From Candidatus Bathyarchaeia archaeon (GTDB taxonomy: Archaea > Thermoproteota > Bathyarchaeia > 40CM-2-53-6): DNA of 64,000 bases. Position 1 is the stretch's first letter, and each line of letters starts with the position of its first letter. The notes beneath the pieces are model-generated. The model was not told where the DNA came from. It ran no database searches and was given only the letters and a program-made list of their open reading frames with translations. Of this stretch, positions 5,401 through 34,953 are shown piece after piece. The DNA lies in the NCBI GenBank assembly GCA_035935655.1, contig DASYWW010000062.1, positions 1-64,000 on the forward strand, in the 5' to 3' direction. Position numbers and translations under genes: made by a program.

Positions 5401-5749
5401 GGAGATTGCAATGAGGTACGAGAGAGAAGCTCATCGAGAGCCTGAGGACGTGTCGAAGGAAAACCTCGGATTCGACATCCGCTCAAAAGAACCAGAAGGA
5501 AAGACCCGCTACGTTGAGGTCAAGGCCAGAGCCGGTATAGGACCTGTCGCTCTGACGCAAAACGAGTGGTTCAAGGCACAACGCTTAGGCAACGACTATT
5601 ATCTTTACGCTGTCTGGAATGCAGCCAAGGACCCTAACGCCAAGCCCAGAGTCGTACAAGACCCGGCCCGAAATCTCAAGGTGGAAGAGAAGATAGAAGT
5701 GGTGCGCTACATTATCCCAGCTTCAGAAATCGAACAGAAATCACGATAG
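2450..5749 (+). CDS. SNF2-family helicase with C-terminal DUF3883 (Hma-like helicase)
   Basis: A 1,099-residue SF2 ATPase. Motif I is DDPGAGKT (about residue 115), motif II VVDEAHK (about 215), motif III LTATPHRG, motif V ATEAAGEGIN and motif VI RLEQRMGRIHRYGQ. A coiled helical insert separates the two RecA lobes. The C-terminal 100 residues (LGFDIRSKEPEGKTRYVEVK) match DUF3883, a nuclease-like fold. It is the first gene of a helicase-methylase-ATPase defence operon and probably translocates on DNA. The conserved N terminus IELEEVKPGT lies upstream of the GTG at 2450: the frame is open from 2417 (ATA, with GGGAG nine bases before), so a non-standard start is possible. Confidence 0.9.
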   Translation: MISGPKWPEPVEVKKIDNDGTYIHIVGATTTTGQHIDQLIPVSELSDIQIRTIRTDFRSEPWKVFLALETKRYRFASLYDPLLAMNASKVDPLPHQIEAVYGYVLKLPRIRFLIADDPGAGKTIMAGLIIKELKLRKLAKRILIVVPGHLKDQWRRELKDRFEETFVVIDRGLLGAHYAENVWERENQIITSMDFAKRDEILPSLSSAQFDLVVVDEAHKMSAYRYGDKTVKTNRYRLGEALSKLSTPHLLFLTATPHRGDPENFRLFMDLLEPGFFATTEMLQESIENEDNPLFIRRMKEDLKDFEGKPLFLPRYVKTVPFRLSDDEKTLYNELSRYVKEQYNKALRSDKRRNVAFALVILQRRLASSTFAILKSLERRKKRLEDLLKGAEKSQPKENVFDFEEVEDLSEEERWQEEELWETLSVAENRQELEAEIRTISGLIEKARSIIQKESEVKVNQLKRTMEELKQKFPKKKILIFTEAKDTLEYLEKKIRAWGYSINTIHGSMKLEDRVEAEKIFKNETQIMVATEAAGEGINLQFCHLMINYDIPWNPNRLEQRMGRIHRYGQTKEVYVFNLVAEDTREGKVLVRLFEKLNEIRNALKSDKVFDVISEVLYGKNLSQLMVEAAASARDINEILKEIDITIDEEYISRVKENLGESLATRYIDYTRLKEMAEKARENRLIPEYTESFFKKAFLRAGGKLRERKDEYLAIESSPYEIRTIAGEDNFKKRYGPLLKAYPKITFDKDIGFRNPDVEFVSFGHPLFEAVLEWVDRELSTELKKGAVFTDPEGNLDGYVLFYEGEVKDGTGSIAGKSLFAYYFDSRTAEIRTISPTIMWDLSEGKDGGVQGDVDDLKKRVLQQVISGLKTYMSKLQTDRNRQAQIKEKYGVKSLDQLVIGLDGDLIGLYNRKDTGANVDLAIRNKEEQKRKYEKGREELQDIISKERNLTMSMPVFLGTVRVKPALQVGEAMQRDEEIERLGMEIAMRYEREAHREPEDVSKENLGFDIRSKEPEGKTRYVEVKARAGIGPVALTQNEWFKAQRLGNDYYLYAVWNAAKDPNAKPRVVQDPARNLKVEEKIEVVRYIIPASEIEQKSR

Positions 5750-8459: not shown

Positions 8460-11002
8460 AGCCATTTCACACCATTGCAGTACCTCACCGAGACATTCTC
8501 GATGGCAAACTCACTATGGAGGTTTTCGCCGCAGACCTCTGGGAGACATACCAGGGTAGGGCACCAGAAGAATATCGTGACTCGACGACTTTCTTCAAAA
8601 AGACATACCTTACCCAGGGTTTGAAGAATCTGCTCGATGTGGTTGGAAAGCGACTACAAGGAGAGCGTGGAGACCCTGTCATTCAAATTCAGACACCGTT
8701 CGGAGGCGGCAAGACTCACGCGCTAATTGCAATGTTCCACCGAGCCAAGGAATGGAAGGCCAAGCCCGTCGTAATCGTCGGGACCGCCCTCAGTCCTCAA
8801 GAGACGATTTGGGGAACTATCGAGAAGCAACTTACCGGTAGTGTCAGAAAACTGTCGGGGAATGTGTCTCCAGGGCGCGAGGCTTTGAGAGAGGTACTTC
8901 AGAAAAACCAACCTGTGTTGATTCTAATGGACGAGGTCCTAGAATACACCACGAAGGCTGCTGGGGTTGCTGTCAAAGACACTACGTTGGGAGCTCAAAC
9001 TATTGCGTTCATGCAAGAATTAACCGAGGTCGCGGGCACTCTTGACAAGGTCTGTGTGGTCATAACGCTGCCTTCCAGTCTGCTGGAACACTATGACGAA
9101 AAGGCCGAGCGACTCTTCCAGCAACTTCAGAAGGTCGCGGGTCGAGTTGAGAAAATATACACACCGGTTCAAGAGAACGAGATAAACAAGGTTATTCGAA
9201 GAAGATTATTTTCCGAGGTTAACGAGGCAAAAGCCAGGACAACTGTCTCAGAATTTGTGGATTATGCGGAGAAAGAAAGCGTACTCCCGGCTGGCAAAGA
9301 GCCGTCCGAGTATAGGGAAAGCTTCCTTGAATCCTTCCCATTCATGCCGGAGGTAGTGGAGGTGTTGTATCATCGCTGGGGAAGCTATCCAACATTTCAG
9401 AGGACTAGGGGCGTCCTCAGACTCCTCTCGCTCGTAATCTACTCGTTGAAGATGAGTGGGAGGCCCTACATTTCATTGGCAGATTTCGACCTCAATAATG
9501 AGGAGACCAAGCGAGAACTGATAAAACACATAGGTGCAGAGTTCGACAGCGTAATCGCCAAAGACATAACGAACAAGGACTCAGGCTCCAAAGTCATCGA
9601 CAGAACCATCGGAACGTCCTTCCAGGGTCTAACACTCGGAACAAGAGCAGCAACAACGACTTTCCTCTACTCATTCTCTGGGGGCCCGGAGAAAGGAGCA
9701 CACATTGGCGAAATCAAACGGGAAGCGACTACCACCGAGAATCCATCCAGCGTGGTGACTGAAGCCCTTGAGCAGCTAAAGGGTAAGCTCTTCTTTCTTC
9801 AGAGCCTGAATGACAAATACTTCTTCTCCAACCAACCCAACCTGAATCGCATACTGCTCACCAAGATGGAGAACATCAAGCCTGCAGAAGCCATTGATGC
9901 AGAAAGACATCTGATTGGGGAGCAGATTGACGGAAGAAAGCTCAAGGTCTGGCCATGGCCCGACAAACCGAAGGACATTCCGGACACAGAAGAGCTGAAG
10001 TTGGTAATAGCTCGTGACAAGGACCTTGCTTTCATGCAGAGAATCCTTGAAACTAAGGGAGACTCTCCAAGAATTCACAAGAACACAGTTTTCTTTCTCT
10101 GTCCTTCTGAAGCCGAGAAAGCATCGTTCCAAGAGTTGGTTAAACGAAAAATTGCGTACGACCAAATCTCAGCAGACACGACTCTTAGACTCACTGATGA
10201 CCAGAGAAAAGAGATTAGGAAAAACCTGGAAAGGCTGAACGAAAACCTGAAGGATGCTGTGGGGCGAACCTACCGTCTAGTTTACGCACCGGCTAAGGAC
10301 GGAGTGAAGGAAATTGACATTGGAATCCCTACTTATGGTGAGAACAAGAAAATCGATGAGGAAGTCTACGAGCAGCTGCTGGCAGAGGGAGAGTTACTTG
10401 AGAAAATCGCCCCGGTTATCATCAAGGAAAAATACCTGAAGGAACGAGACTTCGTAAATCTGCGTCAGTTGAGGGATGCCATGTCTAAGACGCCTGGAGA
10501 AAGGCGGGTGGTCAACTCTGGGGTCCTTGAAGATAGTATTCGGCAAGGCGTGAACCAGGGACTCTTTGGATTAGGAGAAGTAAAAGAGAGTGGGAATCTG
10601 GTCTGCCAGTTCTTCAAAGAAGACCCGGTCATATCTTTTGGGGAAACCGAGTCACTAATCAGAGACATCGTTTGCACTGCGCAAAGAGATGGCGCAGGCA
10701 TAGAGCCCTCAGCTCCCACGGTCGAAGGGACTATTGACACTCTTGGAGGCACTGACCAGACTGGCGTTTCTTCGCCTGCAATCGGACGTATCATGAAGGA
10801 TGTTGATTTAAGATTCAGAATACCACGAGGGAAGGTTTCTCAAGTCATGGGTGTAATGAACTACCTTCAAAGCAAGTTCCAAACTCTGGACTTGGAACTC
10901 AGAGCAAAAGATGGTTCACTTTCGGAGGAGGAATATTCTAGCAAGATAAGAGAAGCACTTCGGCAGTTGGGAATTCGTTTGGAAGCTAATCAAAAGGAAT
11001 AG
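8456..11002 (+). CDS. DUF499 ATPase (Hma-like ATPase)
   Basis: An 848-residue P-loop ATPase. Walker A is TPFGGGKTHA (about residue 80) and Walker B VLILMDEVLEY (about 155), the DUF499 signature. The rest is AAA+-like with a long helical C-terminal region and DxxK/EEEY motifs near the end. The start ATG overlaps the methylase stop (ATGA), so the two are translationally coupled. DUF499 ATPases occur with DUF1156 methylases and SNF2/DUF3883 helicases in archaea and bacteria, catalogued as helicase-methylase-ATPase defence. The ATPase probably senses or regulates the DNA-processing partners; this is inferred from the context. Confidence 0.87.
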   Translation: MKPFHTIAVPHRDILDGKLTMEVFAADLWETYQGRAPEEYRDSTTFFKKTYLTQGLKNLLDVVGKRLQGERGDPVIQIQTPFGGGKTHALIAMFHRAKEWKAKPVVIVGTALSPQETIWGTIEKQLTGSVRKLSGNVSPGREALREVLQKNQPVLILMDEVLEYTTKAAGVAVKDTTLGAQTIAFMQELTEVAGTLDKVCVVITLPSSLLEHYDEKAERLFQQLQKVAGRVEKIYTPVQENEINKVIRRRLFSEVNEAKARTTVSEFVDYAEKESVLPAGKEPSEYRESFLESFPFMPEVVEVLYHRWGSYPTFQRTRGVLRLLSLVIYSLKMSGRPYISLADFDLNNEETKRELIKHIGAEFDSVIAKDITNKDSGSKVIDRTIGTSFQGLTLGTRAATTTFLYSFSGGPEKGAHIGEIKREATTTENPSSVVTEALEQLKGKLFFLQSLNDKYFFSNQPNLNRILLTKMENIKPAEAIDAERHLIGEQIDGRKLKVWPWPDKPKDIPDTEELKLVIARDKDLAFMQRILETKGDSPRIHKNTVFFLCPSEAEKASFQELVKRKIAYDQISADTTLRLTDDQRKEIRKNLERLNENLKDAVGRTYRLVYAPAKDGVKEIDIGIPTYGENKKIDEEVYEQLLAEGELLEKIAPVIIKEKYLKERDFVNLRQLRDAMSKTPGERRVVNSGVLEDSIRQGVNQGLFGLGEVKESGNLVCQFFKEDPVISFGETESLIRDIVCTAQRDGAGIEPSAPTVEGTIDTLGGTDQTGVSSPAIGRIMKDVDLRFRIPRGKVSQVMGVMNYLQSKFQTLDLELRAKDGSLSEEEYSSKIREALRQLGIRLEANQKE

Positions 11003-23792: not shown

Positions 23793-24899
23793 TTACTCTT
23801 CGTCTGACTCCTCGACATCTTCGCCTTCTCTGTAACGTCTTGCACGGTCAGAGAGGTCGTGCGTCTTCTCGTGACGCTCCAGGACTTCTTTGTTCTTAGT
23901 TGTGAAATCGCAACCAAGATACTCGAACTTACAGTAAAGTGTCGGATTCCCGCGTCGAAAGCGTGAATCAGATTCGAGACACTCTTCGCAAAGTTTCAAA
24001 GGCGTTCCTGTGTAATAATTGTAACCGTTCTTCAACTCCGCAAACTTCTTACAGTTAGCGCATTGCTCTTCGATTTGCGGAACTTCTATCTCTCTATCTT
24101 TGTCTTGGTAGCGTCTCTCTCCGCTCTCTCCCGCATACGGATTCCGAATTCTTGGATAACTGTCTCTCGAACCTTTCGTTCTACCTGGACCACGAGGTCT
24201 TCCGTTCTCAATCAGAAACCAGAAGTTACCGAACCATGATACTGTTACGATTTTCTTGTGGTGTCTATGATATCGTTTCTTCCACTGCTCTCGTCGGTAA
24301 GCTTTCCACTTCTCGTATTCTTGTTTCGCAACGACTTGAAGTTTCCAAAATACAGGGTCAGCGAGACGTTTCTTCCCAACTTCTTCGAAGAACAACTTCG
24401 GATTGCTGACACCATTCCAACCTTCGACTTCGAAGAGTTCATTCCAATACTTGAAGCGATTCCAAAAGCGATTGTGTTTGTCCCACTTTCCCTGCAGAGG
24501 GTTGAAGCTTTTGAATGGGTCACGGGTGAAGTCCTTCGGACTAACGTCATGGGTTCCTTCTCTTCCGAGATACAAACCAGAAACCCATGCGCTCTGTTTC
24601 TCGACGTTGCGAAAGAGATAGGCTAACTCTTCGAGTTGAACGAACTCCCAGAACTCAAGTGCTGGAACAATTGTCTTGGGAGAAGTTCGAAATGCCACAA
24701 GTTTCTTCTGGAGTTCTCGGTATCTTGTGATGAGAGCCAGAATCTTTGCTTTCTCTGTCTCGTAATCGACCGCTCCTTTTCGAAGTTTCTTCTTGAGTTC
24801 TGCTAAGATAGCCTGAGTTCGAAGGTCGAGAACTTCTTCTATCGGCTGAACAGCTTGAAGGTCTTCCTGAGTTGCAACTTTAGCAATCTGTGCTGTCAT
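23793..24899 (-). CDS. Hypothetical protein with C-terminal zinc fingers (368 aa)
   Basis: An N-terminal helical and charged part, a Trp/Phe-rich middle (EEVEGWNGVSNPKLFFEEV-like, RFKYWNELFEVEGW), a basic linker (KKRYHRHHKKIVTV, RGPGRTKGSRDSY) and C-terminal CANCKK, LCEEC, and TLYCKFEYLGCDFTTKNKEV then HEKTH, a C2H2 finger. The ATG overlaps the integrase stop (ATGA), so they are co-translated. It may be a DNA-binding recombination or virion protein. Not recognised. Confidence 0.55.
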   Translation of the reverse strand: MTAQIAKVATQEDLQAVQPIEEVLDLRTQAILAELKKKLRKGAVDYETEKAKILALITRYRELQKKLVAFRTSPKTIVPALEFWEFVQLEELAYLFRNVEKQSAWVSGLYLGREGTHDVSPKDFTRDPFKSFNPLQGKWDKHNRFWNRFKYWNELFEVEGWNGVSNPKLFFEEVGKKRLADPVFWKLQVVAKQEYEKWKAYRREQWKKRYHRHHKKIVTVSWFGNFWFLIENGRPRGPGRTKGSRDSYPRIRNPYAGESGERRYQDKDREIEVPQIEEQCANCKKFAELKNGYNYYTGTPLKLCEECLESDSRFRRGNPTLYCKFEYLGCDFTTKNKEVLERHEKTHDLSDRARRYREGEDVEESDEE

Positions 24900-26236
24900 T
24901 GTTCCTCGCTTTCCGAATTGTCGGACTTGTCTTCGAGTAGTTTGTCGATTTCTTGCCTCGTTAGTTCAGCAATCTTCCCTTTCATTCCTGTGCGAGCCAA
25001 ACTTTTCAGTAGTTCAGGTGTCAGCAGTCCGTTCGCTTCAAGAATCGTAAGCAGTAACTCGTTCTGTTTTCTTGCGATAGGGTCTACAACTTCTTTCACA
25101 ACTTCGACTTTCGGTTCACCACGCTTCGTAATCAGATTCAGTCTCGGTCGAAGTTTTCGGAATAGTTCTCGGATACCGTTCTCTCCGTCGGCAGTCCACG
25201 GAGACTTGTCATACTTGAGAGGGTCTACAGTGTGACCGAGACAGAACTCTCCATAGTTTCTTTCTCTCTCTTTCAGTTCGAGATTTCCGAGCAACGTTTG
25301 AAGTGTGTCTCTTCCCATTTCGTGAATCCGTAATCTCTCAGGATTCTCGATTCCTGACTCTTTCCGCAAGTCACGAATCTGTTCCTGTGCTCTGTGGTCA
25401 CTCATGGGCTTGCCTCGTGTAGTGACAAAGAGCGAATCGTCTTTCGTAAGCGGTCTTCCGAGTTGGCTCTCTCGCTCTTCTAACAGGTCAGCGAGAGCGT
25501 CGATTTGGTCGTCCACAAGCATAGTGTAGAATTTGACATTGCGCTTCTTTCGAATCAGGTAACTGTTCTTGTCTCCTTTCGGAATTCTGACAGGCTCGAT
25601 TTCCTCTTTCCAACGAATCTCAGGTGTCCGAGACTTGAGAACTTCGTAGATACTGAACCACTTCCGATTTAGGTCGAGGAATTCACCTGCTCCAAGTCCT
25701 GACAGAATTGTCAGAACGAGTGCTTTGTCTCGTTTGCTCTTGGTAGAGTTCACGAGTTGCCGAATTTCGTCGTAATCTACCGTGGTAGTGTCGGATTCGG
25801 CAGGCTCTCCGTTCTCTTTCTCTTCGACAGTCTCGTAAGTGAACTTGTAGTTGCGAGCGTTCTGTCTTCCTATCTTTAGTTCGAGAAACGATTGAACAGC
25901 CGCAACGTAACCCCGACGTGTGCGAGAATCCCATTCAGAATGAGAAAGAACCCACTCTTCAACTTCCTTAGCCCAGGCGGTTTGAGTCTCGAAGTCTCGT
26001 TCACCCTGAGCCTTCTTGACCGAATCAACCCAATCCGAGAATGCTCCGAACTTCCTGCTCAGGACATCAGCCCAATATGTGCGGAGTGCTCCGAGATACT
26101 TCCGAGCGGTCCCTGTCTTCTTCTTGGTAAGTAGAACTTGGAGAACGGGATTGTCCTTAGTCCACTGTTGCACGTCTACTTTGACGTTCCCGTGTCCCGA
26201 CGGGAATCTGTGTGCGGTCACTTTGGAACACTCCAA
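24896..26236 (-). CDS. Tyrosine recombinase (integrase)-like protein
   Basis: A 446-residue protein with a SAM-like helical core-binding N terminus (ARKYLGALRTYWADVLSRKF) and a catalytic half: RDKALVLTILSGLGAGEFLD, RIPKGDKNSYLIRKKRNVKF, RLRIHEMGRDTLQTLL and LGHTVDPLKYDKSPW. These match boxes of tyrosine recombinases (Lys strand, HxxR, GH...Y). The first catalytic Arg, normally in SGLRxxEL, is Gly here, so activity is in doubt. A long charged C-terminal tail follows. It is the best candidate for the element's integrase, transcribed toward the element's interior. Confidence 0.62.
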   Translation of the reverse strand: MECSKVTAHRFPSGHGNVKVDVQQWTKDNPVLQVLLTKKKTGTARKYLGALRTYWADVLSRKFGAFSDWVDSVKKAQGERDFETQTAWAKEVEEWVLSHSEWDSRTRRGYVAAVQSFLELKIGRQNARNYKFTYETVEEKENGEPAESDTTTVDYDEIRQLVNSTKSKRDKALVLTILSGLGAGEFLDLNRKWFSIYEVLKSRTPEIRWKEEIEPVRIPKGDKNSYLIRKKRNVKFYTMLVDDQIDALADLLEERESQLGRPLTKDDSLFVTTRGKPMSDHRAQEQIRDLRKESGIENPERLRIHEMGRDTLQTLLGNLELKERERNYGEFCLGHTVDPLKYDKSPWTADGENGIRELFRKLRPRLNLITKRGEPKVEVVKEVVDPIARKQNELLLTILEANGLLTPELLKSLARTGMKGKIAELTRQEIDKLLEDKSDNSESEEQ

Positions 26237-26463
26237 AGCGTCTCTCGCTTCGCTCTCCGTCTCAGTAACTCGTGGACAATCTTTTCGTGTCGGTGCTGCG
26301 GACTCGCTCCGACGTAGATTACTTTCTCGACTTTCGCTCGAAGACTCTTTGCAACTTCACTCGATGCGGTATCAAGGTAGCAATACCAACAGATTCCTTC
26401 GTAAGGCAGTAAGTCAACTGAACTCGTGACTTCTGCGCAAAGAGCGCAACGTTCACGAGGCAT
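26218..26463 (-). CDS. Zinc-finger protein beside the integrase (81 aa)
   Basis: MPRERCALCAEV and GICWYCYLDTA form a four-Cys zinc site (about 6-28), followed by a basic helical C terminus (HRHEKIVHELLRRRAKRETL). It overlaps the integrase start by 19 bases and its ATG overlaps the stop of the 35-residue gene upstream (TAATG). A recombination directionality factor or regulator would be a reasonable guess. Confidence 0.57.
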   Translation of the reverse strand: MPRERCALCAEVTSSVDLLPYEGICWYCYLDTASSEVAKSLRAKVEKVIYVGASPQHRHEKIVHELLRRRAKRETLWSVPK

Positions 26464-26570
26464 TAGGCAACACTCCCTAAGACCTGACCGACGAAGAACC
26501 CTGTAACCGCTCTGAGTCCGAGTGGTGAGAAGACTCGGAACACTACGTTTAGAAATCTCGTTGATTCCAT
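26463..26570 (-). CDS. Small hydrophobic peptide (35 aa), first of integrase operon
   Basis: From ATG 26570 it reads MESTRFLNVVFRVFSPLGLR then AVTGFFVGQVLGSVA and TAA, overlapping the next ATG (TAATG). It is amphipathic to hydrophobic, a possible membrane peptide. Its start is only 7 bases from the divergent orc1 ATG, so the orc1 promoter would lie inside it. Supported by the translational coupling, not by homology. Confidence 0.42.
   Translation of the reverse strand: MESTRFLNVVFRVFSPLGLRAVTGFFVGQVLGSVA
26518..26538. other. Hairpin CCGAGT...ACTCGG
   Basis: A perfect 6-base inverted repeat with a 9-base loop inside the small gene beside the element's right end. It could be an integrase arm site or an RNA hairpin. 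No matching copy was seen at the left end. Confidence 0.25.
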
Positions 26571-26577
26571 AGGAAAA

Positions 26578-27888
26578 ATGCTACAAGAACCCTTAATTCC
26601 ACTGGAAGCCGGCTCGCAGAAAACCGGACCGATTCAGGACTTGTCACAGCAAGGATTAGATCTCATCTTCGAAAGGGTCCTTTCAGGAGGAGAAGTCTTT
26701 CGCGACAGAAATCTCCTCAGGCACGACTACATGCCCGCGACCCTTCCCCACAGGGAAGAACAGATCAAACGGCTAGGATCTGTACTCGCTCCCGCCCTAA
26801 CAAAGGATCACGTGTCGAACCTGTTCGCCTACGGCAAGACTGGAACAGGAAAAACAATAGTCACTAGATTTGTCCTCGACCGGTTGCAACGCAAGGCTCG
26901 CGAACATGGGCGAGCTCTCGACACGTGCTACGTCAATTGCCGACTTGCCGGGACAAACTATAGGGTAATCGCTGATCTCTGCAGGTCTCTCGGCCGCGAG
27001 GTTCCATTTACCGGACTCGCCGTAGGCGAGCTCTTGGACCGGTTCAGAAGCGCGCTCCAGTCACGTGGCTCCGCCTTCCTTGTCGTCCTCGACGAGATAG
27101 ACGCGCTCGTGAAGAGGAGCGAAGACGACAGCCTGCTCTATGAGCTGACAAGGATAAACGAGAAGCTGACAGATGGCTGGATCGGGCTCATAGGAATCTC
27201 CAACGATCTCCACTTCAAAGACTTCCTCGACCCGAGAGTCCTGAGCTCGCTTGGAGAGGAAGAGGTCGTCTTCAAACCATACTCATCAGACGAACTATTC
27301 GACATTCTAAAAGAGCGAGCCGAGCTCGCCTTCCGCTCCGGAATCCTAGATCAAGGAGCCCTGCGCCTGTGTGCAGCCCTGGCCGCAGGAGAACATGGTG
27401 ACGCTCGTCGCGCGCTTGACCTGCTGAGGGTGGCCGCTGAGATTGCTGAGAGATCACGCGAGCTACGCGTCCTAGAGAATCATGTCCGTGAAGCACAACA
27501 GAAGGTCGAGCATGACCGCGTCACAGAAGCCCTGTCATCCCTCCCCCTCCACTCTAGAATCCTTCTAATCTCGGTCATGCAACTGGAGAATGCTAGGAAA
27601 GAGAGTTCTGTTACAGGTGACGTGTACGAGGTATATCGAGAAATATGCGCTGCCGGCTCCGTCGAACCTCTCACCCAGAGAAGAGTCAGTGGATTGCTCA
27701 ACGAGCTGGATATTATGGGCGTCCTAAACGCGCGCGTAGTAAGCTTTGGCAGGTATGGTCGTACAAAGAAGATCCGGCTAGGCGTCGAAGCCCGGTCAGT
27801 AACTGCGTCCTTCAACCAAGACGAGATGGTTCGAGGACTCCTCAATTATGCTCCGCGAAGCGTCCTCAAACACCAAACCAGCCTCTAG
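26578..27888 (+). CDS. cdc6: Orc1/Cdc6 replication initiator
   Basis: A 436-residue AAA+ initiator. LPHREEQIKRLGSVLAPAL leads to Walker A NLFAYGKTGTGKT (about residue 82), Walker B FLVVLDEIDALV (about 168), sensor 1 LIGISNDLHF and sensor 2 GDARRALDLLRVA; the C-terminal winged helix (TQRRVSGLLNELDIMGVLNA) binds ORB DNA. The protein binds the replication origin and recruits MCM. The ATG at 26578 fits a leaderless transcript from a TATA-like TTTAGAAAT at about 26549; TTG 26641 is an alternative start nearer the family N terminus. An ORB-core dyad TTCCACTGGAA lies at 26597. It flanks the mobile element directly. Confidence 0.93.
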   Translation: MLQEPLIPLEAGSQKTGPIQDLSQQGLDLIFERVLSGGEVFRDRNLLRHDYMPATLPHREEQIKRLGSVLAPALTKDHVSNLFAYGKTGTGKTIVTRFVLDRLQRKAREHGRALDTCYVNCRLAGTNYRVIADLCRSLGREVPFTGLAVGELLDRFRSALQSRGSAFLVVLDEIDALVKRSEDDSLLYELTRINEKLTDGWIGLIGISNDLHFKDFLDPRVLSSLGEEEVVFKPYSSDELFDILKERAELAFRSGILDQGALRLCAALAAGEHGDARRALDLLRVAAEIAERSRELRVLENHVREAQQKVEHDRVTEALSSLPLHSRILLISVMQLENARKESSVTGDVYEVYREICAAGSVEPLTQRRVSGLLNELDIMGVLNARVVSFGRYGRTKKIRLGVEARSVTASFNQDEMVRGLLNYAPRSVLKHQTSL

Positions 27889-28444
27889 ATGCATTGGCAT
27901 AGATGATGGCCCGTTTCCACCGGAAACGGATGACACGATCAGGTATGCTCCTCTCCTAGCCGTCTGGTTGAAAGGACCTCATCTACACCAATTCAGAGCC
28001 GGCTGGATTACAGTGGACGGACTGGATGCAACCAGAAAGGCTGAGCATCTCCTCAAAGGGTCCACGCATACTCCTGTCTTACTGTCCGGCGTAACATTCG
28101 GAGGGTTCAATCTCATCGACCCATGGAAGATCCAGAAACTATGCAAAGCACCAGTAATCGTGGTTGTCGGTTCTCGGCCTGATAACAGGGCTGTGAAGCG
28201 CGCCCTGACTCGACACTTTCCCGATTGGAAGCGGAGATGGGACTTGATCAGGTCACTCGGCCCAATACAAAGGGTCAGGGCGATGATCGGCGAGGGTCCA
28301 TTGTTCTTTGAACGGTTCGGATGTTCAACTCGAGAGGCTAGATTGATCCTGAAGACCTCGGCGTTCGTTTCGCGAGTCCCTGAACCGTTGCGGGTTGCGG
28401 GAGTTCTTGCTAGAGGTCTGTTCTTTTCCGAACCCTCTGGCTAG
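27848..28444 (+). CDS. DUF99 family protein (endonuclease V-like fold)
   Basis: A 198-residue protein. The start ATG lies inside the end of orc1 (41-base overlap); the first conserved stretch is CIGIDDGPFPP, then VDGLDAT, LLSGVTFGGFNLID and APVIVVVGSRPDN, as in COG1628/DUF99. The fold is related to endonuclease V, but its substrate is unknown. It is coupled to orc1 and probably belongs to the same operon. A palindrome GTTTCCACCGGAAAC at 27913, ORB-like, lies within its first codons. DUF99 is archaeal, supporting the domain call. Confidence 0.83.
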   Translation: MLREASSNTKPASRCIGIDDGPFPPETDDTIRYAPLLAVWLKGPHLHQFRAGWITVDGLDATRKAEHLLKGSTHTPVLLSGVTFGGFNLIDPWKIQKLCKAPVIVVVGSRPDNRAVKRALTRHFPDWKRRWDLIRSLGPIQRVRAMIGEGPLFFERFGCSTREARLILKTSAFVSRVPEPLRVAGVLARGLFFSEPSG

Positions 28445-28510
28445 CTACTAGGTTACAGGAGGCTTTAGTCGTCCCGTTGAGGTTGCTGTGGACAGTCAAC
28501 GGAATAATTC

Positions 28511-28723
28511 ATGGATTTTGGATTGGGAGAGTTTTGCATGACTGGAAAAAAGGCCGCCAGAGAGAACCAGTTGAATGATTATTTCCGCAGACGTTGTTGC
28601 AATTACGAGAACTTCACTTGTGACCGTGTCTGGGAATGCGCGTTGTGTGCACGTCAGTCCGTGAAAGTTGAGCCGCTAATGGACGAGATGGAGTCGACTA
28701 CAGTGGCTTCTCGGAGGAGGTGA
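28511..28723 (+). CDS. Small Cys-rich protein
   Basis: Up to 70 residues; ATG 28538 is preferred because GGGAGAG lies 7 bases before it. RRRCCNYENFTCDRVWECAL followed by CARQSVKVEPL has five Cys in a zinc-like spacing, with an acidic tail. Its stop is 14 bases before the start of the coiled-coil gene, so the two are probably co-transcribed. Unknown family. Confidence 0.5.
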   Translation: MDFGLGEFCMTGKKAARENQLNDYFRRRCCNYENFTCDRVWECALCARQSVKVEPLMDEMESTTVASRRR

Positions 28724-28737
28724 GTTGACTGGAGACT

Positions 28738-28950
28738 TTGAGACAGGAAGAGGTTGTACGGCTTGAAGAGGCTCTTCTGAAGAAGATGGAAGAGAGGCTC
28801 ACTCCTCTGATGGAGCAGGCTGCACGAGACGCGGCGCGAACGGCAATGCAAAGACTGCGGCTGGACATGATGGCTCACATCAGTAGACATGAGGAAACTA
28901 TACAGAGGCTAGCGAAAGAGGCACTAGCCGCAAATCACGTTCCAAGATAG
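28738..28950 (+). CDS. Coiled-coil protein (70 aa)
   Basis: TTG start with GGAG five bases upstream. One long charged helix, EEALLKKMEERLTPLMEQAA followed by RDAARTAMQRLRLDMMAHIS, with heptad spacing, ending QRLAKEALAANHVPR. It is paired with the preceding Cys-rich gene. It may be a small nucleoid or scaffold protein; no family is recognised. Confidence 0.5.
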   Translation: MRQEEVVRLEEALLKKMEERLTPLMEQAARDAARTAMQRLRLDMMAHISRHEETIQRLAKEALAANHVPR

Positions 28951-29056
28951 CTGCCTGTTTCCTACCCTCATACCGGATGGATGCAAGTCTGCCTAGTCGT
29001 TACTAGGTGCGCCTCAGCGGTTCTATGCCATTCGGTGGGAGAAGATCTGGTTCTTT

Positions 29057-30163
29057 CTAGGCGTTCTTGCATGTTGGGCAAAGCGGAATCTTGTTGACAA
29101 TTCCCTTTGTCACAACGCAGTCTGTGCAAAGGTGCTTGCGGCAGGAACTGCAAGTTCTCTCATGCGCAGAGCAAACTGTCCCACCACAGACTTCGCATAT
29201 CGCCTTGGACTTGAGGTCGCAAAGTGAACACTTCTGAGTATCATCCCAGATCATCTTTCCAGTAGCAGCCTGGATGATCTTGCGATAGGACTTACCCGCG
29301 GCAAGCATCTCCACGGTCACAATCGGAACATGCAGCAGTTGAACTCCGGTTACGGTTGCTTCGTCATGACCGCTGACCGCCTCCTTTGCCTTAGCTCGAA
29401 TCATCTCCTCAGTTACCCCGGCAGGCGCAACTGTCACAGTGTTCTTCATTTCGAGTTCCGGAGGCAGTTTCGGCATGGATCCTGTTGATGGCTCTATCTC
29501 GAGGCAGTCGACAAAGAACCCTGTCGACGGGAGGTTTTCTACATGTCCCTCGAAGAGCAATGCGTCGCAGGCGCGACCATCAACCCCGTCAAACACGAGA
29601 ACTCCAACGGCGAGTTTTTTCCGTCCATCATCAATCTGGAAGCTGGCAAAAAAATACGGTCGAAACTCAAGCCTCGGCATGGAAGAGAGCTTTAGGAACG
29701 TACCGTTTACCAGACCATGAGCCAAGATACGGGATGCGACAGCCCTCGCGACAGGTAGTGTCCCAGGGACCTTATGCCTCTCCGGTGCCTTGATGCTCTC
29801 AACTCTTTCCTTGAGTTTGGCTAGATCCCAAAGCTCGACGCCAAGCTTGCGAGCCATGAACTCCGCGTTCCCCGCGAACCCTTTTGGGGAAACGTAGATT
29901 CCGCTCTGAATGCCTAGACTCTTCAGGCGGGCCGCGAACTTCTCAACCTCTCGGCCATCGACCTGACTAGTGCCTTCCCAGCACTCAAATGCGACTTTCT
30001 GGATTTTCTTGCCTTTTTTTCTGGATGCGAGAATGTCTACAAAATAGCTTCGCGAATCCCCAGTCTGCGCATTCTTTTCAACCTCAAAACCCTCGACCCG
30101 ACAGACGTCACAGACCATGTCCACTACAAAGTTGCCTGACTCGGCTCTTGCGTTCGTGGTCAT
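29057..30163 (-). CDS. Restriction-endonuclease-like protein with zinc C terminus
   Basis: The natural start is ATG 30163 (MTTNARAESGNFVVDMVCDV), giving 368 residues. The N-terminal 130 residues resemble the Mrr/REase fold (SYFVDILASRKKGKKIQKVAFECWEG), but the usual QxK is ECW, so it may not cut. The middle is beta-rich and the C-terminal 60 residues contain CSLCDL, CEVCGGTVCSAHERTCSSCR and LCPTCKNA, a double zinc module. It diverges from the 30285 gene. An archaeal DNA-associated role near the origin is inferred from context. Confidence 0.55.
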   Translation of the reverse strand: MTTNARAESGNFVVDMVCDVCRVEGFEVEKNAQTGDSRSYFVDILASRKKGKKIQKVAFECWEGTSQVDGREVEKFAARLKSLGIQSGIYVSPKGFAGNAEFMARKLGVELWDLAKLKERVESIKAPERHKVPGTLPVARAVASRILAHGLVNGTFLKLSSMPRLEFRPYFFASFQIDDGRKKLAVGVLVFDGVDGRACDALLFEGHVENLPSTGFFVDCLEIEPSTGSMPKLPPELEMKNTVTVAPAGVTEEMIRAKAKEAVSGHDEATVTGVQLLHVPIVTVEMLAAGKSYRKIIQAATGKMIWDDTQKCSLCDLKSKAICEVCGGTVCSAHERTCSSCRKHLCTDCVVTKGIVNKIPLCPTCKNA

Positions 30164-30284
30164 GTGGGACCCGCGTGTATTCAATTTGAAGGTGCCAAAA
30201 TTGTGGAATAAGCATGGTGTAACTATCACGGTCGTTGAGCGTGGGCAAGCAAGACTCAATAGCAATGGATACAAAACCGTATCC

Positions 30285-30776
30285 ATGGGTAATCTGTACC
30301 CTCCAATGGATTGGCACGAAGGAACCCGCTCGGTTATCGACGAAACCCTTCGAGATCGAATACTACTCGCGCTGTTGCAACGCAGCAACCTCACTAAAGC
30401 GCAGTTCGAAACGCTTCTCGTAGACCAGTTGGGTCATGATATGGCGAATAAACGCCTAACAAGGAATGATATGGCTCAATTACGCCGAGATCAGAAGGGA
30501 ATAAGCCGCGGATCCTTCAATAGAACCCTAAAGCAAGCGAGGGAAAATGTTGTGGAAGCAATTCACACTGTTCTTCTGCTCGGCTACTGCGGGATGACGG
30601 AGTCGCCAAGTATCGCTCCATTCTTGGAGGCCTCAGAACGTCTTAAGGGGCAGACCTCTCAGCTCCGAGAATCCGCCCAGAACGAACCAGAAGTCTATCA
30701 AAGAACCGTGGACTCCATAATTGAGGACCTCGAGCAAGCCTTCAAAGCACTTTTCGGAAGAAATCGTGACATGTGA
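30285..30776 (+). CDS. Conserved helical protein near the origin (163 aa)
   Basis: Starts at ATG 30285 (MGNLYPPMDWHEGTRSVIDE), avoiding overlap with the divergent gene. TLRDRILLALLQRSNLTKAQ then FETLLVDQLGHDMANKRLTR looks like a helix-turn-helix domain; GISRGSFNRTLKQARENVVE could be a second. The C terminus is a coiled coil. I do not recognise it by name. Its stop runs into the palindrome array at 30775, suggesting the operators regulate the next gene rather than this one. Confidence 0.5.
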   Translation: MGNLYPPMDWHEGTRSVIDETLRDRILLALLQRSNLTKAQFETLLVDQLGHDMANKRLTRNDMAQLRRDQKGISRGSFNRTLKQARENVVEAIHTVLLLGYCGMTESPSIAPFLEASERLKGQTSQLRESAQNEPEVYQRTVDSIIEDLEQAFKALFGRNRDM

Positions 30777-31032
30777 CGTCACGTGAGTGATTAGATTATC
30801 ACACCTATCACATCTATCACTTACGAAGCGGGTGGGGCAGAATTTGTTCGAGGGGCAAGAGTAAGTGTAACCGGCCTCGTCATGTGCTTGACGTCATAAT
30901 GCAACGGGGGAGTCACGTCTCCATCACTTGTGATAGAGCTATGGAGGTGTCCCACCTCACAATCGTTAGTGTTAAATGGGTTCGCTGAGCATACCGTGAC
31001 GTCACACGTTCGACAGGTGTGATGTCACAAAG
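30775..31032. promoter_or_regulatory. Palindrome-rich operator array
   Basis: A 256-base intergenic stretch with GTGACGTCAC (30775), GACGTCAT (about 30890), GTCACGTC (about 30912), GTGACGTCACAC (about 30997) and GTGTGATGTCACA (about 31017), plus TATCAC repeated three times at 9-11 base spacing (about 30797-30820) and ATCACTTGTGAT. Such repeated dyads are typical operators for a winged-helix regulator or an archaeal origin. The last palindrome ends 5 bases before the ATG of the 31033 gene. Confidence 0.55.
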
Positions 31033-31710
31033 ATGTTTGGCGTCGGGAAACGAGAGGAGAAAAGAACGGCCAAGAACTCGATTGAGAACCAGGATATTGC
31101 AAAGCTCTTCTTCGACACTTTTTCAGACAAACTCAGCTCTTTTGAATCACGCTTGAAGAACCTGGTCTTTGAAGTTGAAAGGCTCAGGGCTTCGGGCGAT
31201 CAGTCCAAGCTATCCGATCTTGTATTGCTGGAGCGTCTGCAGAGAACGGAAGAGCGTCTCGGCGAATCACTAAGTTGGATCAAACAGCTCGCAGATGCAG
31301 TCCCTCGTCCTCCAACGCTGGATCCGGCGAAGAACGAAATGGTTGAAGATGAGCCTGAGCTGGTAAGATCCGACCAACAGGTGCCCGTGAATCAACCTGC
31401 GGCTCTCACTGACCCTTCAATGGTACAGCCCGGCTCTTTGAACTCGATAACAACGCCAACCGAGCTTCAAGTGCTTACCCTTCTCGCCAACGAGGGCCCT
31501 AAGTCCGCACCAGAGATAGGGAGGTTTGTAGGGCGTTCCAGGGAGCATACTGCTCGTTTGATGAAGAAACTCTTTGATGAGGGATACGTTCGGCGGGACC
31601 AGACTCGAATCCCGTTTCGATACTCCACCGTAGAACGTGTCAAGCAGAGTTTCACGAGGTCTGAAGGGAAGAATCAGGGGCAAGAGATTGTTTCTGCAAA
31701 TCAAGCTTGA
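31033..31710 (+). CDS. Winged-helix regulator with coiled-coil N terminus
   Basis: A 225-residue protein. The first 90 residues form a coiled coil (DKLSSFESRLKNLVFEVERL), then a Pro-rich linker, then a winged helix at about 140-205: TPTELQVLTLLANEGPKSAP, EIGRFVGRSREHTARLMKKL and FDEGYVRRDQ. The recognition helix SREHTARLMKKL is clear. It is preceded immediately by the palindrome array, so self-regulation is likely. It overlaps the opposite-strand regulator gene by 59 bases at its 3-prime end. Confidence 0.68.
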   Translation: MFGVGKREEKRTAKNSIENQDIAKLFFDTFSDKLSSFESRLKNLVFEVERLRASGDQSKLSDLVLLERLQRTEERLGESLSWIKQLADAVPRPPTLDPAKNEMVEDEPELVRSDQQVPVNQPAALTDPSMVQPGSLNSITTPTELQVLTLLANEGPKSAPEIGRFVGRSREHTARLMKKLFDEGYVRRDQTRIPFRYSTVERVKQSFTRSEGKNQGQEIVSANQA

Positions 31711-32077
31711 CACGGTACGCCAAACCTAACTTTTCCTGTTCTCTCTCAAGAACTCCCCTATCTGCTAGTCTCATTAGATACGTGGATACTGTGCTCAATG
31801 GGATCTTTTCCCTGAAAGTGGCTTCAAACGCCTTTCTCGCTTCACGTGAGCTGAAGCTTCTGCCTTTCAGCTGGGATACTATCGCGCTGGTTAATCGGTC
31901 GAATTTTCGCGGGGAGAGCCCCAGGGTTGTCGCAGATGATTGCGGGGTTCCGGACATCAACTCGACGAGATCCAATATTCTGCCCACTTTCTCCCTCGTT
32001 ACGGGACCGTCAATGGCGATCGAGTGTCGGGCCCCGTCAGTGTCGTAGAATTCTACCTTCAATCGCCGTGGTCTCAT
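31652..32077 (-). CDS. Winged-helix protein (141 aa)
   Basis: Starts MRPRRLKVEFYDTDGARHSI, with an N-terminal beta segment, a helical middle (VGRILDLVELMSG) and a winged helix KAFEATFREKIPLSTVSTYL then MRLADRGVLEREQ at about 83-120. It converges with the coiled-coil winged-helix gene, ends overlapping. Their joint position between the palindrome array and the candidate ORB suggests origin or cell-cycle control; inferred only. Confidence 0.6.
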   Translation of the reverse strand: MRPRRLKVEFYDTDGARHSIAIDGPVTREKVGRILDLVELMSGTPQSSATTLGLSPRKFDRLTSAIVSQLKGRSFSSREARKAFEATFREKIPLSTVSTYLMRLADRGVLEREQEKLGLAYRVKLDLQKQSLAPDSSLQTS

Positions 32078-32200
32078 GCTTGTTTCCTCAGCAAACCGTT
32101 GAGTTCACAGTTCGCTGTTCACATGTAGAAAAGGCTCACGCATCATCCTCCATGTTAGGAGTAGACTTGGCGTCCAATCGATCCTGACATGTTCCATAGG

Positions 32201-32220
32201 TTCCAGTGGAAATGAAGGGG
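32201..32220 (+). promoter_or_regulatory. Candidate Origin Recognition Box (ORB)
   Basis: TTCCAGTGGAAATGAAGGGG matches the Orc1/Cdc6-binding ORB layout: a TTCCANTGGAA dyad followed by a G-rich tract. It lies in the 260-base gap between a winged-helix gene and the large membrane protein gene, 4.3 kb from cdc6. Weaker dyads without the G tract are at 26597 and 27913. Confidence 0.55.
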
Positions 32221-32253
32221 TCCTAGAACGAATTCACAGGTAGTGAAGCGATT

Positions 32254-32317
32254 ATGGGGGCAAGAGCGGGAAACAATCGCAGTATGAGCCTTTGTTTTGG
32301 CCGAGAATTGCCCCCAT
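32254..32317. repeat. Inverted repeat ATGGGGGCAA / TTGCCCCCAT
   Basis: Two perfect 10-base arms (32254-32263 and 32308-32317), 44 bases apart, 34 bases downstream of the ORB. They could frame a duplex-unwinding or initiator site, or act as a terminator for the leftward membrane-protein gene end at 32338. The spacer is not notably AT-rich. Confidence 0.4.
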
Positions 32318-32337
32318 CTAGGGGATGTGAAGGAGGC

Positions 32338-34953
32338 TCAAGAACTTGAGGTACTTGGAGTGCCGGCAGGTTTGTCGGGTTCCGTTTGCGCGCTTGCGGG
32401 TGGCAGAGTGTTTTGCGGCTCTGCTGGCGTGTTAACCCAGGGCTCCGTTCTCTTCTTTCGATGTCTCGTGACTAGTTTCATTGTTTCAATGATTGGGGTG
32501 AGGAGAAGAGGGAGAAGCAAGAGATACGAGTAGGGTTGAAGATCATTGAACGTTCTTGTGAACTGCGTCCAGGGACCACTTGATGATGAGATCAAGGGTT
32601 TGTCTGTGACAACTGTGTATCGGATTTGTGTTCCGTTTGGTGCTTGCCAAACAAATTCTGCGGATGCCGGTGATAGAACATACGTTCCACTGCTTTCCGT
32701 TGTTGCTGTATAGCTGAGAGATTGTGTTTGGCCTGGAGTGAGGCTGGCGAACCGGCTGGTTTGCAAGCCACTAGGCGAGAGCTGGAGCGTCTTCTGATAC
32801 GCAGATGGTGCTTGATCATCGGTCACATTGAGATTTGTGACGGTGACATTGTCGAAGTTCTGGATCATAGCGACGACGTTATGGCTAGTCCCCAGAGGTC
32901 CACTAGATGGATTCGCGGTTTTCTGTAGGGTTATGTTCGGGGCGAACGGATACGTGAAGTTCGCCACAAAGTCTGCCCTCGCTGTAGCGGTGGCGTTGTA
33001 CATGTATGTCGAAGTGAAATTATTGTAGATTGGATTGGAAGGCGGTATCTGGCCGAGCGGGCTGTAGAGAACCGTTCCTCGCTGAAATGAAATGGAGACG
33101 ATGGAGGCGTTTGAATTGGTATCGCCAGCGATTCCGGTCTGGAATCCAAGGAGTGATTTCAAGCTCAGATAGTGTTGTCCGGCTTTGTAGAATACTCTTG
33201 GAAACTGGGAGTTTAGGAGGAAGCTGAAGGCTCGGGTTGGTGTCTTGTTGAGAGCTGTTGGGAGGCTTATCGTCGCGAGGCCTAACGCTGCGAGGTAATG
33301 TAGGTTTTGGAAGGTCGCTGGGTTGATGAGTGTAGAGAAGCTTGAGCTGGGTAGAATTCCGAGGACTCGTGTTAACGCGTCGTTGTTTGTGAGTTCGGGG
33401 GTTGGTGCGTAGATTGTGACGGTGCCTTGGCCCGAAGGTATAGCAAGGGCTTTGGTGAAGGAGACGCTCAGGGCGCGGAAGAACTGGGCTGCGACATTAT
33501 CTGACTCTCCGCGAGGGTCTCCCGTGTAATAGGTGATCAGTGCAGGCTGAGAGAATAGTCCAAGGATGAAGCTTGGAATTCCCAGGCTGGAGCCTGTGTC
33601 GAGGGATTGTGAGTAGTTGTTGTCGATTATGAAGATTGAGAAGTTGTTCCCTGCGTAATTGTTGTCGAGAACGAGGCCTTTGCTTGAAAGATCGAGGTTT
33701 ATCATTCGTAGGCTGGCGCTGGGGGCGCCTAACATGTCCATTCCGATCGCCAGGTTCTGTTGGTATGGTCCGCCTGGTGGAGCTTGTATGATTGTTGAGG
33801 GCCGCGTTGTGTCTGGAATTGGGATGAAGAGGAGGATTGTGAGTATGAGTAGGAGGATTCCCTTCTTTGGGATGTTGGGATTGCCTGTGCCCGGTTGCAG
33901 GACGGTTTTCTTTGTCTTTATCATTCTCCAGAATGTCTTGAGGATGAACGCATCTCCTTGCCAGAAGAGGGATGCTGCGCGACCTGATATCGTGGCTGTG
34001 GCGAAGACGAGGCCTGCGTTTCTCATCATTGTCAGTACGATGTCTTGAATGACCATCGGGCTTGTTGGGGATGAGCCTTGTAGGAGGATGGGGATGATGT
34101 CACCTGCTACGGGTCCTGTGGTGGCACTCATGATCGAGAAGCCCGGAGGTGGAGGAGGAATATTCGGGAGAGATGACAAGCTGACGTTTTGGTAGATTGC
34201 GAGAGCTGCGAGTCCTAGTGCTCCGAGGGTTGACAGGAACACTGTCATGCCCACTAGGAAGCCGCGTCTGATTTTTCCGCCGGCGATTAGCCCGCCTAGG
34301 AATCCTGCGAATGTCCAGAGGTAGAGTACTGGTGGATAGGTTAGCGGGTTGGTGAAGATGAGGAAGAGGGCTACGATCATAGTGTTGAAGTGAACACCGA
34401 AAACTGGGGAGAGCCAGTCGCTTACTTCTCTAAGGCCTGGTGATAGTTGCGTGTAGCCGATGTAGAGGACGAGGAGGTATGCCGCGATCCATCCGAGGTA
34501 TCGGCCGAGAAACATTCCCTCGCTCGGATGTGGAAGGAGGTAGACTGTTTTCGGATCGTCGGGGGTTCGTTTGACCAAGACGTCGCCGATCCGGGTGTAG
34601 AGGTAGATGTAGAAGATTCCCGGGAGGAGTCCACCGATTATGAATCCTAGGATGGCGGTGGTGAATGTGGAGCTGCGGGCTTTTTCGAACTGTCTCTCCG
34701 CGATCTCTTCTCTTATCAGGCTGCCTTTGCGTGAGACGATGACGGAACCGATTGCAAGGACGATTAGGGCGACTGGAATTGTCTGGTGGGCTTGTATTCC
34801 TGGGACCCACGTGGGCAGGGTAGCTATGATTAGGGTGGTGAACAGTATTCCGAGGGCGCGGGCAATGCTGATGGAGACTTGGGCTATGGTGGCGGCCCGC
34901 CGAATCTCCTTCGGAGCGTCCTTCAAGGCCATGTAGGGCATAGGCTGGGCCAC
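32338..34953 (-). CDS. Large multi-TM membrane protein with extracellular domains (871 aa)
   Basis: The N-terminal 350 residues hold about nine membrane helices with small-residue-rich loops (VSISIARALGILFTTLIIAT, FTTAILGFIIGGLLPGIFYI, FAGFLGGLIAGG). Residues 350-800 are an exported, Asn/Thr/Ser-rich region with a DUF11-like repeat (NPSSGPLGTSHNVVAMIQNF, then YVLSPASAEFVWQAPNG). A final helix YSYLLLLPLLLTPIIETM precedes a Pro/Lys tail inside the cell. Surface or transport-related, unknown. No homologue is recognised. Confidence 0.62.
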   Translation of the reverse strand: MAQPMPYMALKDAPKEIRRAATIAQVSISIARALGILFTTLIIATLPTWVPGIQAHQTIPVALIVLAIGSVIVSRKGSLIREEIAERQFEKARSSTFTTAILGFIIGGLLPGIFYIYLYTRIGDVLVKRTPDDPKTVYLLPHPSEGMFLGRYLGWIAAYLLVLYIGYTQLSPGLREVSDWLSPVFGVHFNTMIVALFLIFTNPLTYPPVLYLWTFAGFLGGLIAGGKIRRGFLVGMTVFLSTLGALGLAALAIYQNVSLSSLPNIPPPPPGFSIMSATTGPVAGDIIPILLQGSSPTSPMVIQDIVLTMMRNAGLVFATATISGRAASLFWQGDAFILKTFWRMIKTKKTVLQPGTGNPNIPKKGILLLILTILLFIPIPDTTRPSTIIQAPPGGPYQQNLAIGMDMLGAPSASLRMINLDLSSKGLVLDNNYAGNNFSIFIIDNNYSQSLDTGSSLGIPSFILGLFSQPALITYYTGDPRGESDNVAAQFFRALSVSFTKALAIPSGQGTVTIYAPTPELTNNDALTRVLGILPSSSFSTLINPATFQNLHYLAALGLATISLPTALNKTPTRAFSFLLNSQFPRVFYKAGQHYLSLKSLLGFQTGIAGDTNSNASIVSISFQRGTVLYSPLGQIPPSNPIYNNFTSTYMYNATATARADFVANFTYPFAPNITLQKTANPSSGPLGTSHNVVAMIQNFDNVTVTNLNVTDDQAPSAYQKTLQLSPSGLQTSRFASLTPGQTQSLSYTATTESSGTYVLSPASAEFVWQAPNGTQIRYTVVTDKPLISSSSGPWTQFTRTFNDLQPYSYLLLLPLLLTPIIETMKLVTRHRKKRTEPWVNTPAEPQNTLPPASAQTEPDKPAGTPSTSSS

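Follow-up and report, generated by a model that had tools for sequence, protein, structure and literature searches.

A predicted origin recognition box beside a winged-helix gene, probably an outer arm set apart from the origin core, in a Bathyarchaeia genome

Does the best initiator box of an archaeal genome mark its replication origin? The question arises at 32.1–32.3 kb of a 64,000-base stretch of DNA, here called the window (bases 1–64,000 of the 337,016-bp contig C62), from a Bathyarchaeia genome of 2,504,272 bases in 65 contigs (G000). In the archaeal oriC1 origins of Pyrococcus, Sulfolobales and haloarchaea, origin recognition boxes (ORBs) flank an AT-rich unwinding element upstream of orc1/cdc6. 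A preliminary description of the window had proposed a chromosomal origin here, on the strength of an ORB-like box close to an inverted repeat of 10 bases in the neighborhood of cdc6.

The box and its surroundings

Archaeal ORBs have the form of a TTCCA-N2-GGAAA dyad, an A/G-rich spacer and then GGG(G)T. The window box, ORB-A, lies on the plus strand at 32201..32221 (TTCCAGTGGAAATGAAGGGG at 32201–32220, with T next) and has this form, which we also saw in the relatives studied here. A scan of all 2,504,272 bases with the pattern TTCCANNGGAAANNAANGGG gave the window box as the sole exact match, and one further site when one mismatch was allowed. Using a weight matrix trained on 20 boxes, the window box among them, ORB-A scored 34.9 bits, compared with 20.3 for the runner-up on the 337-kb contig and 10.3–22.6 for the best scores per strand in simulated DNA (five 0.5-Mb sequences). 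The proposed ORB-like box is thus present, and it is a real, conserved motif of the kind bound by the archaeal replication initiator, whose binding here is predicted.

Conservation in relatives had been suggested as a check of the box, and it bore the box out. In a genus alignment of 14 loci (the window and 13 others), pairwise identity is 0.91 across the ORB, against 20-column means of 0.36–0.52 in the unconserved stretch on the side of the winged-helix gene wH (32142–32191) and 0.40–0.58 past the neighboring dyad, from 32252. In these loci the box lies 5.5–6.0 kb from the start of the cdc6 match (5.6 kb in the window). The wH side of the ORB holds a conserved block, TTCACAGTTCGC-GTTCACATGTAGAAAAG, and just past the ORB lies a conserved dyad, TTCAC-N5-GTGAA (32233..32247), in a stretch with a 20-column mean identity of 0.84 and the conserved form TTCAC-N5-GTGAAG. 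The box adjoins wH at one mismatch or less in 15 of the 18 genus genomes, the exceptions being G010, where wH is at a contig end, G017, with a box two mismatches from the strict pattern, and G011, with an interrupted box. Two TTCACA boxes on the plus strand (32104–32109 and 32118–32123) lie where the wH promoter is expected, 27 and 41 bases from the start of this gene, among four copies in 32078–32337. Counted over the 300 bp that precede wH in 20 class genomes, TTCACA occurs 62 times; 200 shuffles averaged 5.3 and never exceeded 12.

The inverted repeat fared less well. Its arms (32254–32263 and 32308–32317) are indeed perfect over 10 bases around a 44-base spacer, but the relevance to an origin did not hold: the 64-kb window contains 3 such pairs with a gap of at most 60, compared with 11, 3 and 2 in three shuffles, and in the 14 genus loci the arms have identities of 0.40 (columns 32255–32264) and 0.48 (20 columns from 32302), far from the 0.91 of the ORB. 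A G-rich repeat that acts as an enhancer at Haloarcula oriC1 looks similar, but it sits between two inverted ORBs and the window repeat is beside a single one (PMC3936714, in excerpt).

The genes named in the preliminary description were all confirmed. The cdc6/orc1-1 gene (26578..27888, plus strand) is an Orc1/Cdc6 by both Pfam (Cdc6_C, 4e-27) and TIGR02928 (3e-126) and ends 4.3 kb from the box; upstream indels among relatives suggest that its true start is near 26641. Of the named loci retrieved with this cdc6, the nearest belong to Bathyarchaeota MAGs from soil. Both winged-helix regulators are present between cdc6 and the box: wH (31652..32077, minus strand; 141 aa), found by alignment and class survey to be origin-linked across the class, and a MarR-type protein of 225 aa (31033..31710, plus strand; Pfam MarR 1e-7) that by synteny moves with wH. 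The same wH block includes a conserved 219-aa protein without a Pfam match, g30117 (30117..30776, plus strand; synteny). The palindrome array reported between cdc6 and the box is real and, with 11 loci aligned, conserved. It consists of GTGA/TCAC palindromes (30777..31032, upstream of the MarR-type gene), and nowhere else on the 337-kb contig is TCAC/GTGA as dense (12 in the best 256-bp intervals, mean 1.7). TGA-N2-TCA palindromes were also seen upstream of the MarR-type gene in five of six distant loci, the sixth, L049, having been examined over 98 bp only.

The AlphaFold2 model of wH (mean pLDDT 73) shows an N-terminal beta-hairpin plus helix and a C-terminal winged helix, with pLDDT of 86–92 by ten-residue blocks over residues 61–110. 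The predicted winged helix matches winged-helix folds of a general kind, chiefly Fur-family DNA-binding domains, with Z up to 11.4 over 71 residues; the absence of other families among these matches excludes nothing. Foldseek gave no match to the model at E 0.001 or better, and a wH profile found none at E 0.01 in 34 cdc6 loci outside the class (frames of at least 70 aa in the available flanks). The function of wH cannot be read from the modeled fold.

Of the proposed origin neighborhood, the genuine ORB and the origin-derived surroundings stood, and a likely origin core did not, as the box is alone and without an AT-rich stretch. An oriC1 has two or more inverted ORBs and adjoins orc1/cdc6; the window site has one ORB only, 4.3 kb from the end of cdc6 with at least five genes between, and with the weight matrix no second ORB reached 9 bits within 24001–34000. 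An AT-rich unwinding stretch was sought in 32078–32337, where AT content peaks at 57% per 60 bp (50% overall) and falls short of the 95th percentile for such stretches on the contig (58%). In Sulfolobus islandicus, oriC1 needs the inverted ORBs on both sides of its unwinding region in order to fire (PMC12141716, in excerpt), which disfavors a lone ORB as an origin. Cumulative GC skew was computed for the 337-kb C62, for C60 and C62 joined near the attachment site described below, and for G017:C35 and G015:C13. It was noisy in all three genomes, with similar-sized local rises and falls throughout, and likewise in the one-contig genome G130, sampled as 20 stretches of 15 kb. The minima of these noisy curves lay upstream of cdc6 by 9.2 kb in G017, 5.1 kb in G015 and ~95 kb in G000. 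There is no minimum at the window box, and since comparable rises and falls occur everywhere, we conclude nothing from skew, which was uninformative overall.

Further initiator genes were noted along the way. G000 has a second Orc1/Cdc6 with 30% identity (C39:878–2008) and a partial third match (C15:116455–116964); no ORB-like box reached 14 bits in the first 12 kb of C39, and upstream of the second cdc6 (C39:878) a search for origin-like repeats gave weak two-copy repeats only. G012 carries a near-identical cdc6 pair (C12:68742–70010 and C25:726–1982) with 94–95% identity to the window cdc6, either a recent duplication or a mixed bin.

Ancestral layout of the class and a candidate core

We detected wH in 142 of 201 class genomes, and in 94 of the 114 with a completeness of 90% or more and a contamination of 5% or less, making it a common origin-linked gene among those examined. 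A sample of 20 of the 142 was hand-picked from 10 families for enough contig around the gene; two of these genomes, G156 and G145, are apparently those of loci L053 and L058. In all 20, cdc6 is divergent from wH at 495–1102 bp (extrapolated start). The usual order is wH(-) / ORB-A(+) / ORB-B(-) / AT-rich core / ORB-C(+) / cdc6(+) over ~0.5–1.1 kb. All three boxes score at least 17 bits in 17 genomes, the misses being G039, without A, and G163 and G062, without B; a plus-strand box lies 155–215 bp upstream of wH in all but G039 (19/20). Among the best 30 of 34 wH matches at the level of the order, 18 of them from the window's genus, a plus-strand box is found 115–152 bp upstream of wH in 27 at two mismatches or fewer and in 23 at one or fewer. 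The box is near wH in 10 of the 12 non-genus loci; the three misses are L149, with no upstream sequence, L154, with only 156 bp, and L147, with a full 400 bp and no box. Five loci from other families (L053, L055, L057, L058 and L059) have the order g30117 / MarR-type / wH(-) / intergenic / cdc6(+), their intergenic stretch holding ORB-A(+), ORB-B(-), an AT-rich core and ORB-C(+). The comparison shows the window box to be ORB-A, the outer, wH-side box of the oriC1 that sequence conservation predicts for the ancestor of the class, and it gives a concrete map of a likely replication origin, three-box layout included, for a large uncultivated archaeal class.

This layout has come apart in the window's lineage. 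The spacing of ORB-A to the wH start is near-fixed wherever wH sits (124 bp in the window). All three boxes remain with wH in family f3 (L049), at 2.9–3.2 kb from cdc6; L048 has an inverted wH block that includes ORB-A; and in the window's genus, the wH block and ORB-A are on the far side of cdc6 and B, core and C stayed upstream of it. In sister species, B and C adjoin cdc6 on its upstream side; each of them scores at least 18 bits in five (L043, L044, L047, L061 and L073), and B alone does so in two (L045 and L046); the core of the sister species is at about -300/-120 relative to cdc6. From these layouts it follows that ORB-A travels with wH and not with the core. Natural rearrangement has thus separated the roles of the boxes, one being kept with a regulator gene and two with the unwinding core. 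Among close relatives, L035, L037, L039, L040 and L051 have an inverted pair 2.2–2.6 kb upstream of cdc6 with the boxes 185–190 bp apart. These five make up half of the 10 loci with enough upstream sequence to look for a B/C pair at 18 bits or more; of the others, L052 has one box, L033 and L038 each show only a more distant box without a partner, and no box was seen in L036 or L041.

With the weight matrix and these close relatives we located the corresponding core of G000 on contig C60, where an inverted ORB pair surrounds a conserved AT-rich core at ~9376–9573, the arrangement of an oriC1. ORB-B (C60:9551–9573) scores 22.2 bits, and ORB-C (C60:9376–9397) is degenerate, at less than 14 bits, and was placed by alignment, so that a scan of C60 at 14 bits passed ORB-B alone. 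Scores of about 20 bits arise by chance (up to 22.6), and the case for this core therefore rests on the paired spacing and the alignment, in which the core block at ~9493 is conserved in 7/7 sequences (its own and those of six relatives). The core has an AT peak of 67% per 60 bp, above the 99th percentile of its contig (62%) and compared with 57% at the window site. Adjoining it is a gene with Pfam domains DNA_pol_E_B (4e-14) and Metallophos (C60:9596–11104), which from this domain pair we take to encode DP1, the small subunit of DNA polymerase D. Origin DNA of the sister type, from L061, was also tried as a probe for the core in G000 and matched the cdc6 leader only. Given the single box, the lack of an AT-rich stretch and this homologous inverted pair elsewhere, the window site is not a likely origin core. 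Sequence comparison points to the C60 locus rather than the window site as the likely working core, and the window site is probably an origin-derived initiator site, the outer arm of the former layout. The best single ORB of a genome, then, need not mark its origin.

C60 and C62 are separate in the assembly, a MAG with an estimated contamination of 4.5%, and we infer their link, through one integrated element, from uninterrupted relatives such as L037. The sequence of L037 matches C60:7354–8371 and then C62:26582–26678, with 19 query bases overlapping. Host sequence on C60 stops after AGAACCCTTAAT (the left attachment copy, C60:7357–7368, minus strand, read 7368–7357), and C62 resumes host sequence at the same word at 26586 (the right attachment core, 26586..26597, plus strand), in the conserved cdc6 leader. 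The element would span at least ~34 kb (C60:1–7356 plus window 1–26585) and, with ~2 kb of host DNA, separate cdc6 from the C60 core. It carries a tyrosine integrase (24896..26236, minus strand; Pfam Phage_integrase 6e-7), an Hma-type defense system (HmaA-like 2450–5749, HmaB-like 5958–8459 and HmaC-like 8456–11002) and a SLATT-domain protein (638–1522). A 19-base repeat at 6086 and 26592 was considered as the attachment pair; its left copy is inside the methylase-like frame 5958–8459, and the pair was dismissed because the left end of the element is on C60.

Other insertions and repeats were seen in the same region. By eye, L033 and L038 differ too in what precedes the attachment point in the cdc6 leader, and a dispersed repeat of ~200 bp, with ~40 matches in G000, has one copy between the core and cdc6 (C60 ~7446–7655). 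In G011, a provirus-like insertion of 15.8 kb (G011:C155:43040–58893; L217) lies within ORB-A, flanked by the direct repeat TTCCAGTGGAAA. Its left junction carries an integrase frame, and its products include a prohead-protease-like protein (E 1.5e-4) and a TIR/CAP12-type protein. In G011 the initiator box itself appears, from the flanking repeat, to serve as the attachment site. When the integrase of this insertion was compared with that of the window element, no alignment reached significance (best E 0.076). Integrated elements are thus seen entering at the origin box or in the cdc6 leader; in haloarchaea, integrases or transposases are near 42 of 102 potential origins (PMC3528665, in excerpt).

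Possible roles of the retained box

The reading we favor, and hold to be reasonably probable, is that of a broken-up oriC1 in which ORB-A is an initiator site coupling wH to the initiator or to replication. Orc1/Cdc6 would bind ORB-A in the control region of wH, and wH would bind its own TTCACA boxes over the wH promoter; the joint occupancy could then couple wH expression to the level of the initiator or to replication, with firing at the C60 core. If so, sensing of the initiator and firing would take place at different sites in the window's genus. Proteins of the Orc1 family can regulate transcription, Orc1-2 being a DNA-damage-responsive regulator (PMC9738581, in excerpt). A distance of 124 bp to the wH start puts ORB-A beyond the bounds of a typical archaeal core promoter, so that direct control of wH is not compelled.

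A wider and considerably more tentative idea extends this to the whole class: wH on iteron-like TTCACA boxes and Orc1/Cdc6 at ORB-A might form a module acting as a second origin factor or switch, uncoupled from the core yet kept in the window's genus, with the MarR-type protein and the palindrome array possibly being an origin-linked segregation or centromere-like element.

The main rival to the favored reading, which we consider rather unlikely, is titration or negative control, with ORB-A binding Orc1/Cdc6 away from the core and so lowering firing, comparable to the initiator-titrating datA site of bacteria. The genus box is indeed downstream of cdc6 and strongly conserved without a core, and Haloarcula hispanica offers a precedent in an ORB-rich region downstream of cdc6E; that region has 11 boxes, however, and the window has one (PMC3936714, in excerpt). 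The fixed tie of the box is also to the wH start, even where the box sits inside the origin.

The first proposal, by which the 32.1–32.3 kb region would be an active (second) chromosomal origin in its own right, we regard as improbable. The best ORB of the genome, cdc6 at 4.3 kb, the conserved dyad and the TTCACA boxes would all suit an active origin. Against it stand the single ORB, the lack of an AT-rich stretch for unwinding, the inverted pair and its conserved core at another locus, and an inverted repeat no commoner than chance; skew, uninformative overall, showed no minimum here. Lower still we place DNA looping, by which ORB-A would aid B, core and C as the distal part of one extended origin: ORB-A belongs to the origin in the class sample and was retained after the separation, but in G000 at least ~41 kb would lie between it and the core, and box and core have parted repeatedly and in different ways. 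A passive relic without function is very improbable. The interrupted wH-side copy of G011 (15.8-kb insertion), the two mismatches to the strict pattern in G017 (L040) and the missing box of L147 would fit it, but identity is 0.91 in surroundings of 0.36–0.58, and 15 of the 18 genus genomes keep a box next to wH at one mismatch or less.

Comparison with known systems

ORBs and oriC1 are known kinds, and what we describe shares with archaeal oriC1 the ORB sequence, the linkage to orc1/cdc6 and the inverted B/C pair around an AT-rich core, which in G000 adjoins a DP1-type polymerase gene. Unlike in archaeal oriC1, the window box is without a partner or unwinding element, lies past the end of cdc6 at 5.6 kb from its start and keeps its tie to a winged-helix gene. 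We found this origin described nowhere in the literature searched, outside which were most subscription papers and all preprints; within it, the split layout, the class-wide linkage of wH and the retained stray box appear undescribed. A close parallel to the stray box is oriC2D of H. hispanica, where initiator boxes likewise lie downstream of cdc6 and apart from the origin, whereas the window has a single box whose fixed partner is the wH start rather than cdc6 (PMC3936714, in excerpt). WhiP at Sulfolobus oriC3 is likewise encoded by a winged-helix gene adjoining an origin; the likeness is one of gene position, wH differing in its 141 residues and in its place at an ORB-type origin (PMC4010727, in excerpt).
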